A DNA stretch of 64,000 bases from Candidatus Nitrosopumilus limneticus (lineage in GTDB: Archaea; Thermoproteota; Nitrososphaeria; Nitrososphaerales; Nitrosopumilaceae): assembly GCA_022117465.1 (NCBI GenBank), contig JAHCGZ010000001.1:186001-250000 (forward strand), written 5' to 3'. The translations under genes were made by a program, and so were the position numbers. This document shows, piece after piece, positions 14,834 to 58,690 of the stretch (positions are counted from its first letter, which is position 1; every line of letters begins with the position of its first letter). The notes below the pieces were generated by a model that saw nothing but the letters and a program-made list of their open reading frames with translations, searched no databases and was not told where the DNA came from.

Positions 14834-15664
14834 TTAGAAACCTTTTGGTAACGTGCCTTTAGAAGATTTATGAGATTCTGCTTTTGCTTCAAATCCCTTT
14901 GGTAATGCACCACCTTTCTTGTTAGAAGATACATCTGCCTGAGCTTCTGCTTCAGCGACTTCTGTTACTGCGTTTGCAATATCAATTTTTTGTTGTTCCA
15001 ATCTTTTCAAATAATCAGATTCGTAATCAGATAATTTATCGTTTTTAGATTTACCGTCATTGCCTGATTTAATTTTTTGTGGAGGTGCTTGTTCAGTAAC
15101 TTTTGGTTTTGTAACTTCTTGAGCAGTATCTTTTAAAACGACACCCTGTAGAGTCATAGATACACCACTAAAACTTCCAAATCTTTTTTCTGATGGATGA
15201 TATGCAAGTCTAGCTCTTGTTGCAAAGTATTGTTCTGATGGTTGTGTATAACCAGTAACTGTTGCTTTTTGATCATTCCAGTTTTTGGTTGGAATTTTTC
15301 CTACTGGTGCATAACCTCTAACAAAGTATCTGTTAGGTGCTGGTGAATATCCAGTAACTTTTGCTCTGTACTGATGGAAATCAGTCATTGGAGCATTCAT
15401 GTATGCATTTTCTAATGCATCTTGAAAAGTTGTTGGAGTTTCAGCTGGTTTTGGAGTCTCCGTTAGTTTTGGTTCAGAGTCTTTTGGCAAAGTTGGTTGT
15501 GGTTTTGCTGTCTCAGCAGGTTTTACCTCAGCAGGTTTTACCTCAGCAGGTTTTACCTCAGCAGGTTTTGGTGTAAGCTGAGCAGATAATTGATTTAATT
15601 TTGCTTCTAATTCGGCAATCTTGTTTTCAAGATCTTTTTTTGTTTGCTTTTTAGCAGCTGCCAT
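14834..15664 (-). CDS. Repeat-rich protein with VTGY and LPKGF motifs, unknown function
   Basis: 276 residues in four parts. Residues 7-32 are a coiled coil. Residues 33-75 are a Pro/Ala/Lys linker with perfect KPAEV repeats. Residues about 97-175 hold tandem units: YRAKVTGYSPAPNRYFVRG and KATVTGYTQPSEQYFATR, with a third weaker copy ending in HPSEKRFGSF. The last 30 residues have two LPKGF motifs (GALPKGF and GTLPKGF) separated by a Lys/Ser spacer. No signal peptide or membrane helix is present. I do not recognise a family. The tail and repeats suggest binding to a nucleic acid or another protein. Convergent with the peroxiredoxin gene. Confidence 0.7.
   Translation of the reverse strand: MAAAKKQTKKDLENKIAELEAKLNQLSAQLTPKPAEVKPAEVKPAEVKPAETAKPQPTLPKDSEPKLTETPKPAETPTTFQDALENAYMNAPMTDFHQYRAKVTGYSPAPNRYFVRGYAPVGKIPTKNWNDQKATVTGYTQPSEQYFATRARLAYHPSEKRFGSFSGVSMTLQGVVLKDTAQEVTKPKVTEQAPPQKIKSGNDGKSKNDKLSDYESDYLKRLEQQKIDIANAVTEVAEAEAQADVSSNKKGGALPKGFEAKAESHKSSKGTLPKGF
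15514..15568. repeat. 15-bp tandem repeat (KPAEV codons)
   Basis: CAGCAGGTTTTACCT is repeated exactly three times plus a partial fourth within the coding region of the VTGY protein. It encodes the KPAEV linker repeats. Identity at the DNA level indicates recent expansion by slippage, so copy number may vary between strains. Confidence 0.9.
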
Positions 15665-42373: not shown

Positions 42374-42497
42374 CCCGTGGTAGCTCAGCCTGGTAGAGCT
42401 TCCGGCTGTAGTTGTTGGCTTAAGATGGCTGACCGAAAAACAGCATATCAGGCATACAGAAACCGGGTTGTCGAATGTTCAATTCATTCCCGCGGGA
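42374..42497 (+). tRNA. tRNA-Tyr(GTA) with 50-nt intron
   Basis: Exons fold into acceptor CCCGTGG/CCGCGGG, D stem GCTC/GAGC, anticodon stem TCCGG/CCGGG, loop C-T-GTA-G with A38, and T stem GAATG/CATTC with loop TTCAATT. The anticodon GTA reads tyrosine codons. A 50-nt intron at 42412-42461 lies between positions 37 and 38, the standard archaeal site. Discriminator A; CCA follows directly at 42498-42500, by encoding or chance. Confidence 0.93.
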
Positions 42498-56652: not shown

Positions 56653-56753
56653 TGCAGAGGGTGGGATTTGAACCCACGAACTCCTAAGAGAAGGGATTTC
56701 CTATATTAGAGATCTTGAGTCCCTCTCGTTTGACCAGGCTTCGATACCTCTGC
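56653..56753 (-). tRNA. tRNA-Leu(CAA) with 16-nt intron
   Basis: Minus-strand gene with acceptor GCAGAGG/CCTCTGC, long variable arm (CTC/GAG stem), T stem GTGGG/CCCAC, loop TTCAAAT and discriminator A. Anticodon stem AGGGA pairs with TCCCT only after removing a 16-nt intron at 56698-56713, between G37 and A38. The anticodon is CAA. Mature length 85 nt. CCA is not encoded. Confidence 0.94.
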
Positions 56754-56861: not shown

Positions 56862-57176
56862 ATGTCAGAATCAATATGTATTTCAGAAGCAAAAAAAATG
56901 CGTAGTGGAGTTAATGTCGAAGCTGAAGTTATTGGCAAAACAGAACCAAGAACTGTAAATCTCAAAACAGGAGGAACAGTAGATGTCTGTGATGCAACAA
57001 TATCTAATTGTGATGGAAGCGAAGCCAACCAAATGAAACTTACATTGTGGGGTGACGATATTAAGGCAGTCAATATGGGAGATACAGTATTAATAGAAAA
57101 TGGATATACTAACGAGTTTAAAGGTGTGGTATCTTTAACCAAAGGAAAATTTGGCAAGATGACTGTTAACTCTTAG
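56862..57176 (+). CDS. OB-fold single-stranded nucleic-acid-binding protein (RPA-like)
   Basis: 104 residues. An OB fold is indicated by GVNVEAEVIGKTEPRTVNLK, CDATISNCDGSEANQMKLTL and WGDDIKAVNMGDTVLIENGY. It resembles single-domain archaeal RPA/SSB proteins that bind ssDNA. Possibly an abundant protein. ATG after a 20-nt AT-rich stretch; the TATA-like GCCTTATAATTG is about 30 nt upstream. Confidence 0.85.
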   Translation: MSESICISEAKKMRSGVNVEAEVIGKTEPRTVNLKTGGTVDVCDATISNCDGSEANQMKLTLWGDDIKAVNMGDTVLIENGYTNEFKGVVSLTKGKFGKMTVNS

Positions 57177-57472: not shown

Positions 57473-58243
57473 TTAACGATAAGTTTTCTTTGCTGGTCTT
57501 CTTTTAGATGCAGTTTTCTTTGCTGGTCTTCTTTTAGATGCAGTTTTCTTTGCTGGTCTTCTTTTAGATGCAGTTTTCTTTGCTGGTCTTCTTTTAGATG
57601 CAGTTTTCTTTGCAAGATAATCTTTTAATTTTGATGATGCGTTACCCAATGCTTTAGTTATTCTTTCTTCATCTTTAGTTTGTTTTTCAATTTCTTTCAT
57701 TACTTTTACAATATTTTGATGATTAAAATTAACGGTAGTTCTAAGTGTAGGTTTAGATTTAGTTTGTTTTTTAATTTGAGTAGTAATTTTAGATTTAATA
57801 ACATCAAATGTAGAAACTTGTTCAGTTATTTTTTTAAGAGTTTGATGTCTATTTTTAATTTCAGAGATTAATTCTTGAATATGATCGTTTAATGAGCGTA
57901 ATTTATCCTCTGCATTTTGCTTTTCTTCAGGGCTCTCAGCAAATTCAATTTCTTGTTCTACTTGCTCAACTGATTGTTTTTCAGTATTAAGACGTTCTTC
58001 GGCAGCAGATACCAATCTATTGATACTTTCAACTTGAGCATTCTTTCTAGTAAGATTTTCTGAAACATCTGAAATATTCTCTTTTTCATATTCAATTTGT
58101 TTAATCATTTTTTGTAAACCAGTTGCAGAACGCTTTTCTGCAAATTGAAGTTGTTTGAGTTGATTTTCCGCATTTTGTTTAAGTTTTGTTGCTTGATTCC
58201 TCTTTTTTCTCATTTCAAGAATTGTTTTTTCTAGTGGTGTCAA
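57473..58243 (-). CDS. Coiled-coil protein with histone-H1-like repeat tail
   Basis: 256 residues, TTG start. Residues 1-145 are charged coiled coil (MTPLEKTILEMRKKRNQATK onwards), 146-205 a linker, and the last 47 are near-perfect repeats of KKTASKRRPA, four full copies. This Lys/Ala/Ser/Arg/Pro composition matches H1-like nucleoid tails in bacteria. A DNA-compacting or RNA-binding role is inferred. The ending KKTYR follows the last repeat. In-frame ATG at Met 11 is an alternative start. Confidence 0.75.
   Translation of the reverse strand: MTPLEKTILEMRKKRNQATKLKQNAENQLKQLQFAEKRSATGLQKMIKQIEYEKENISDVSENLTRKNAQVESINRLVSAAEERLNTEKQSVEQVEQEIEFAESPEEKQNAEDKLRSLNDHIQELISEIKNRHQTLKKITEQVSTFDVIKSKITTQIKKQTKSKPTLRTTVNFNHQNIVKVMKEIEKQTKDEERITKALGNASSKLKDYLAKKTASKRRPAKKTASKRRPAKKTASKRRPAKKTASKRRPAKKTYR
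57481..57613. repeat. 30-bp tandem repeat coding the H1-like tail
   Basis: The unit CAGTTTTCTTTGCTGGTCTT plus CTTTTAGATG occurs at 57511, 57541 and 57571 exactly, at 57481 with one change, and partly at 57601. Exact DNA identity over 30 bp implies recent duplication, so copy number is likely to vary. Confidence 0.95.
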
Positions 58244-58378
58244 TAACTGACAACAATAAATCGTTCATTAAGTTGTTAATATGATTAGGATTTGACTTTT
58301 CGGTTAAGAAAATTAACCAATTTAGATCGCGAAATATCTAATTTTAAAAAATATTAGTGATGATATTTTAAGAAAACT

Positions 58379-58690
58379 ATGGATTTTCACCCAAAAAATT
58401 TACCAATATCAAAAACATATATCGTAAAAAATGAAAATGATGCAATAAAAGCTGTTGAGGACATGGTAAATTTAGGATTTAAAGAAAAAAAAGAGGGTTT
58501 CAAAGTTTTAATGCCAAAAGAAACAAAAATTGCAAAAAGAATAGGATATACAATTACAACAGGAGTTACAAAGGGACTAAGAGAGAAAAATGAAACTAGG
58601 GATGTTAAGTATTGGACATATCATCATGATGACGAACATTTTGCAATTGTGCTAATAGATAATTCAGTTTTAACAGAATTAGGGTTTTGA
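58379..58690 (+). CDS. Hypothetical protein, 103 residues
   Basis: MDFHPKNLPISKTYIVKNEN begins the protein; DAIKAVEDMVNLGFKEKKE follows, then GYTITTGVTKGLREKNETRD and a His-rich YWTYHHDDEHFAIV. Alpha/beta, soluble, no known motif. The HHDDEH patch could bind a metal. It overlaps the PAP2 gene by 12 nt at 3' ends. Confidence 0.6.
   Translation: MDFHPKNLPISKTYIVKNENDAIKAVEDMVNLGFKEKKEGFKVLMPKETKIAKRIGYTITTGVTKGLREKNETRDVKYWTYHHDDEHFAIVLIDNSVLTELGF

Follow-up and report, generated by a model that had tools for sequence, protein, structure and literature searches.

A predicted helical-hairpin protein with a replaceable H1-like basic tail in the Nitrosopumilus family of archaea

Results

A single gene with a perfect 30-bp tandem array

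The window, the whole 64,000-nucleotide stretch of DNA that was analyzed, contains a minus-strand gene whose product combines a conserved helical part with a basic tail built from tandem repeats. The gene at 57473-58243 is a single-gene unit flanked by one convergent and one divergent neighbor. The features of this locus are as follows.

57473..58243, minus strand: whole coding sequence, 256 aa, TTG start, stop codon at 57473-57475
57611..58243, minus strand: conserved helical part, residues 1-211 (AlphaFold2 mean pLDDT 94.6; alignment of relatives)
57476..57610, minus strand: basic tail, residues 212-256; four identical KKTASKRRPA units followed by KKTYR; net charge +23
57482..57613, minus strand: 30-bp tandem array (TRF, 4.4 copies, 100% match)
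58267..58272, minus strand: CTTAAT element at -29 to -24 from the TTG; probable TATA-like promoter of a putatively leaderless mRNA
56862..57176, plus strand: OB-fold protein, convergent neighbor; Ssb-like, 19.1 bits versus the Pfam cut-off of 24
58379..58690, plus strand: 103-aa protein, divergent neighbor; no match in Pfam

The array at 57482-57613 received a TRF score of 264 without indels, far ahead of the other arrays in the window (13 rows). The initial annotation had proposed a 30-bp tandem array encoding a basic repeat tail at 57473-57640, and this array was recovered here; the span given for it holds the array but also takes in the stop codon and approximately 27 bp of the helical part. 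The four repeats are present as described, but the term near-identical was too weak, since the DNA of the four KKTASKRRPA units is fully identical (distinct/total units, 1/4). Among the 96 open frames of at least 100 codons in the window, Lys and Arg reach 52.5% in the best 40 residues of the tail gene versus 32.5% in the runner-up, and the tail is the most basic stretch within the window. A search of the window's genome with the tail found no tail-like sequence elsewhere.

The start codon at the aligned position in 95 relatives is TTG in 74, ATG in 17, and GTG in 3, with one row mis-set. Additionally, a TTAA motif lies about 25-30 bp upstream at a constant distance in 40/40 archaeal rows, as compared by eye with several rows representing the same species; the 41st row is from Micromonospora and is unrelated. 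Judged from these alignments, a rare start codon (TTG, 58241-58243) is conserved on a probably leaderless mRNA.

The gene is conserved and syntenic across the family

With the whole protein as the query, the gene was found in 32 of 61 relatives, all of the window's genus. With the helical part as the query, 210 of the 250 family genomes gave a match, covering 19 of 22 genera, and a 32-row profile located it in 101 of 110 genomes that were at least 95% complete (15/17 genera). In an order-wide sample of 151 genomes, all 33 matches fell inside the window's family and none outside it, and of the 118 genomes without a match, at least one (G268) belongs to the family. The initial annotation had likened the tail to bacterial H1-like nucleoid tails; the host family, however, consists of ammonia-oxidizing archaea, and the named relatives that carry the gene are Nitrosopumilus and marine group I thaumarchaeota. 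What began as one repeat thus becomes an unnamed archaeal protein that occurs throughout the family and whose H1-like tail is replaceable.

Across the family, the hairpin-tail gene is present in single copy and in a conserved gene order, namely PGK, PAP2, the 103-aa protein, the hairpin-tail gene, and the OB-fold protein. Among the 59 gene-bearing stretches, which exclude a 60th stretch without the gene (L106), the 103-aa protein and PAP2 each occur in 59, PGK in 56, and the OB-fold protein in 53; a VTT/DedA-like protein is also among the neighbors in the syntenic block. The sequences were taken from 79 matching genomes fetched as 80 stretches (G084 twice), and the others are loci from the searches. 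In three genomes (G066, G268, and G269), other genes occupy the syntenic site and the gene is truly missing, which indicates that some lineages can do without it. In G016 and G073, the contig stops at this site. The 103-aa neighbor (58379-58690) is as conserved as the hairpin-tail gene and is retained even where that gene is lost; it was located in five of the nine genomes that miss the gene in the 110-genome profile search. In the finished genome G143 (L071), an in-frame TAG lies within the helical part, reflecting either a pseudogene or a sequence error.

No family in Pfam, NCBIfam, or the PDB covers the protein (window protein; 32 members for Pfam and NCBIfam), and the PDB sequence search returned weak coiled-coil matches only, with a best E of 0.031. 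A viral origin was rejected because a profile scan of viral contigs found no relative, and a Micromonospora match (L041) was dropped because its likeness lay in low-complexity tail composition only. In the literature, we found no report of the protein in Nitrosopumilus, which is weak evidence of absence given the thin coverage of subscription journals and supplements.

A long antiparallel hairpin is predicted upstream of the tail

AlphaFold2 modeling of residues 1-211 with 32 homologues places helices at residues 3-100 and 105-210, with a mean pLDDT of 94.6 and a pTM of 0.64. Based on this model, residues 1-211 are predicted to form one long antiparallel α-helical hairpin, which would be about 15 nm long if both 100-residue helices are straight. 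The N-terminus of the model opens directly with a charged helix, and both chain ends lie at the same tip of the predicted hairpin, where the tail departs. When the tail was included, residues 219-249 and 252-256 were unstructured, with pLDDT below 50, and the tail is accordingly modeled as disordered from residue 219. The initial annotation had attached the tail to a coiled coil, and a helical part upstream of the tail is indeed predicted with high confidence. In the model, the helices are accounted for inside a single chain as an intramolecular hairpin and do not in themselves support the oligomeric scaffold of the initial annotation, although oligomers may form.

Foldseek places the antiparallel arm of Pyrococcus Smc first among the fold matches (E 5.5e-4, TM 0.74), and this arm aligns over 209 residues with a Z of 15.3 and an rmsd of 2.7. 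Unrelated hairpins score nearly the same Z, and the Smc match therefore means only "long antiparallel hairpin". Similarly, SMC sequence models match 29 of 32 members, and at 20-25 bits in the member shown versus cut-offs of 567 and 729, these matches read as a generic coiled-coil signal.

Tail composition is kept while the repeat units are replaced

Length statistics were based on 72 whole, gap-free genes out of 95 rows; the remaining 23 were excluded because their tails are cut by a contig end or a run of N, and the internal TAG of G143 (L071) led to its omission. Across the 72 genes, the tail measures 18-458 aa (median 69) and its Lys and Arg share is 34-62% (median 54%). This share is at least 46% in 70 tails, and the last residue is K or R in 62. 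The pooled composition is 39.8% K, 12.6% R, 18.9% A, 7.9% T, 6.8% S, and 6.1% P, with acidic residues at approximately 1% of all tail residues, and the net tail charge, +23 in the window, ranges from +9 to +223 across relatives. The H1-like basic make-up proposed from a single tail therefore extends to the family. Moreover, five short whole tails of 18-32 aa (G148, G181, G093, G009, and G187) indicate that a long tail is not required everywhere. Whole proteins of at least 290 aa account for 30 of the 72, including the 313-aa protein of G145, which we take to be N. maritimus SCM1.

The lowest Lys and Arg share (34%) belongs to G065, in which an Ala/Glu/Arg repeat is mixed with KKPAA repeats. 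This locus (L150) is strongly diverged and carries long Ala/Glu/Arg helical repeats together with a 15-bp KKPAA array that has one non-repeat interruption. The largest tail found, of 458 residues, lies in a 680-aa open frame of G101 (L149); its units are of two interleaved kinds, the first around SSSKTKAAPKRKRPSRK, the second longer and Gly-containing.

At least two exact DNA copies of a unit occur in 54 of 91 tails, and all 54 periods are divisible by 3. These periods fall into 16 classes from 15 to 114 bp, and along a tree of the helical part the class label changes 25 times; both numbers are upper readings because the 60- and 66-bp periods could be the 30- and 33-bp ones counted double. Compared with a shuffled mean of 34.4, the 25 changes indicate that the period label is clustered yet often replaced. 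Basic tails also exist without clear arrays in some lineages, e.g., G238, G240, and G254. Within arrays of the 30-bp class, the mean unit likeness is 94.5% (degenerate edge units counted) versus 82.4% when modal units are compared from genome to genome; the corresponding values are 93.1 versus 71.8 for the 33-bp class and 93.5 versus 81.9 for the 36-bp class. The units of the window and of G198 differ at a synonymous proline codon that all copies of the window array share, as expected if arrays are rewritten whole. The expansion had been called recent, which holds for the present array, with units that are identical inside it and differ between relatives at synonymous sites as well, but the tail itself belongs to a family-wide conserved protein. 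Collectively, what selection appears to preserve in the tail is its charge, its disorder, and its frame, not a particular sequence.

Tail length changes between near relatives

Each species is represented by one genome in the collections, and near relatives carry 3, 4, and 10 repeat copies. The tails of G006, G023, and G151 measure 111, 41, and 51 aa and those of G083 and G100 measure 95 and 35 aa, with the first 585 bp being 94-97% identical in each group. In a further group (G089, G090, G096, and G093; first 585 bp 92.5-96.6% identical), the tails measure 88, 66, 55, and 28 aa, while one near pair, G178 and G200, has equal tail lengths. The initial annotation had predicted length change between strains from DNA-level identity; the fast change seen here is between near-relative genomes of different species.

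Assembly probably affects these lengths, and contigs often end in the array. The contig start lies within 250 bp of the tail side in 26 of 71 minus-strand matches versus within 250 bp of the gene start in 1 of 79 plus-strand matches (Fisher p = 6e-9 over the 150 matches listed, relatedness uncorrected). The median tail is 101 aa in 21 single-contig genomes versus 64 aa in 51 drafts (Mann-Whitney one-sided p = 0.002, relatedness uncorrected), so short-read assemblies probably undercount repeats. Single-contig relatives have the same kind of tail, and the tail is therefore not an artefact of the window's assembly.

Discussion

Ammonia-oxidizing archaea of the Nitrosopumilus family are among the most abundant cells in the ocean. 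In N. maritimus, histone is reported at less than 0.06% of the proteome (PMC7613761), which raises the question of what packs their DNA. The computation presented here establishes the conservation of the protein, a predicted hairpin, a disordered basic tail, and fast turnover at constant composition. Based on sequence comparison and modeling, a rod with a basic disordered tail that is conserved as charge fits a sequence-independent nucleic-acid binder.

The closest known systems are bacterial. HbhA of Mycobacterium, the heparin-binding haemagglutinin, is a demonstrated nucleoid-associated protein that binds DNA independently of sequence, and its tail is both required and enough for this (PMC10665949). 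As in HbhA described there, a Lys/Ala/Pro-rich tail with short repeats follows a helical, coiled-coil part in the archaeal protein. In contrast, HbhA carries a hydrophobic stretch at its N-terminus and its coiled coil spans 81 residues (PMC10665949), where the archaeal protein has a 211-residue hairpin, and the archaeal tail is a fast-changing perfect tandem array. HbhA was compared through the Pfam and NCBIfam (32 members) and PDB searches only, and no HbhA-like family was among their matches. Moreover, the KPAA tail of AlgP binds DNA and varies in repeat number among isolates (PMC9239181). AlgP and PhaF of Pseudomonas share with the archaeal protein a helical N-terminal part and a disordered basic tail of tandem repeats whose number changes, here between species; however, they are tied to polyphosphate and PHA granules (PMC9239181), whereas the archaeal gene can be present without either granule system.

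The tail composition also resembles that of H1/H5 and chlamydial Hc2-type proteins. Unlike H1/H5, the archaeal protein has a predicted two-helix hairpin instead of a winged-helix globular domain; the window protein has no linker-histone match in Pfam up to E 1, and its Hc2 score (PF07382) is 15 bits versus a cut-off of 40. The predicted hairpin resembles SMC arms in being an antiparallel coiled coil, with Pyrococcus Smc as the best fold match, but the ATPase head and hinge are absent and only a 211-aa hairpin and the tail are present. Based on the family models and the predicted hairpin, membership in the linker histones, Hc2, phasins, and SMC was rejected.

We consider it fairly probable that this protein is an architectural, sequence-independent nucleic-acid binder of the Nitrosopumilus family, most likely a part of the nucleoid and comparable to HbhA and AlgP. 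In such a mechanism, the hairpin of about 210 residues would serve as a spacer and contact surface, the disordered positive tail would neutralize and hold the DNA backbone as the tails of H1, HbhA, and AlgP do, and two or more molecules could bridge or compact DNA. Tandem duplication and loss continually rewrite the units and the length of the tail; because selection appears to keep charge, disorder, and frame rather than sequence, a change in tail length could quickly tune affinity. What we infer from these features is that DNA is the ligand, that the molecules bridge it and self-associate, and that length does the tuning.

A broad proteomic screen of 2022 for archaeal nucleoid proteins limited its candidates to less than 290 aa (PMC7613761). 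The archaeal protein is like these candidates in being a single-gene unit and in being basic and lysine-rich, but the G145 protein, at 313 aa, lies beyond their size range (PMC7613761). A role left vacant by the scarce histone is plausible. The window's genome has one histone gene and four Alba genes, and Alba may therefore fill this vacancy instead. A bolder version, in which the protein would be the main chromosome organizer of marine ammonia-oxidizing archaea, i.e., a lineage-specific linker-histone-like rod replacing the nearly absent histone, with a fast-mutating tail-length dial that varies from cell to cell within a population and determines how compact the DNA is, appears doubtful.

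Against the nucleoid reading, short tails suffice in some genomes, some lineages do without the gene, and Lys/Ala/Pro tails also bind rRNA, polyphosphate, heparin-like glycans, and membranes. In a first alternative, what the tail grips would be not the chromosome but rRNA, mRNA, or a condensate, with the hairpin gathering partners. Lys/Ala-rich tails are found on ribosomal proteins too, Mycobacterium RplV, a 23S rRNA binder, has AKKA repeats (PMC10665949), and tail composition alone cannot separate DNA from RNA. However, no RNA-binding domain was found in the protein; none of its neighbors (PGK, PAP2, the 103-aa protein, the OB-fold protein, and the VTT/DedA-like protein) is translational, and the OB-fold neighbor leans toward single-stranded DNA, though below cut-off, which makes an RNA or ribosome scaffold unlikely. 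A much weaker candidate for the ligand is some other polyanion, for example the surface of the membrane, filaments of cell division, or glycans of the cell envelope. The HbhA tail binds sulfated glycans as well (PMC10665949), long helical hairpins are frequent in membrane-remodeling proteins, and PspA is the fold match at rank 18; against this, a charged helix is predicted at the very N-terminus, and apart from the membrane proteins PAP2 and VTT/DedA-like, no envelope or division neighbors were found in the syntenic block.

The pairing of a helical part with an H1-like tail in PhaF and AlgP (PMC9239181) also raises the idea of a granule-to-nucleoid tether, in which the hairpin would coat a PHA or polyphosphate granule and the tail would tie DNA. 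A class III PHA synthase scores above cut-off in the window's genome and in about 101-102 of 110 genomes. However, the protein is kept in seven of the eight genomes without a PHA synthase match (G151, G180, G021, G080, G101, G112, and G123). Among these, G101 and G112, the latter presumably Nitrosopelagicus brevis, are single-contig genomes. Conversely, PHA synthase is present in G065, where the protein is divergent, and in G066, G268, and G269, where it is missing. PPK1 was found in none of the 110 genomes and PPK2 in 11 of them, and no phasin match was obtained in Pfam (E up to 1 for the window protein and up to 0.01 for the 32 members). Since the protein is kept without PHA synthase and PPK1 and PPK2 are scarce, tethering to PHA or polyphosphate as a general role is refuted by these distributions across the 110 genomes, and tethering in any form seems improbable to us. 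We give similarly little weight to mutational expansion without function, by which slippage-grown repeats would make the tail mere baggage on a coiled-coil protein. The wide spread of copy number among near relatives and the lack of conservation of the unit sequence would agree with it; in contrast, the basic, nearly acid-free make-up persists in 70/72 tails despite differing units, the frame is kept in 54/54 exact arrays, and basic tails persist in the array-less lineages (G238, G240, and G254). We rejected a purely neutral repeat, given that unrelated units preserve both composition and frame.

Returning to the nucleoid reading, the protein is a good candidate, on the analogies and comparisons above, for a missing DNA-organizing protein in some of the ocean's commonest microbes. 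It is conserved, syntenic, and unannotated, and in 30 of 72 whole genes it reaches or exceeds the size cut-off used in the only broad screen (PMC7613761), which makes the question directly testable; 72 whole natural tail variants are already available. The family also provides a clean case in which selection appears to hold tail charge and disorder while sequence, period, and length are repeatedly replaced.

Other features of the window

A second perfect array, of 15 bp with 3.9 copies (TRF), lies at 15512-15569 in a minus-strand frame that encodes Lys-Pro-Ala-Glu-Val repeats after a short helical-looking start; these repeats contain acidic residues, unlike the H1-like tail. In addition, Rfam identified tRNA genes at 56653-56753 (101 bp) and 42374-42497 (124 bp) that were missed by ARAGORN and probably contain introns.
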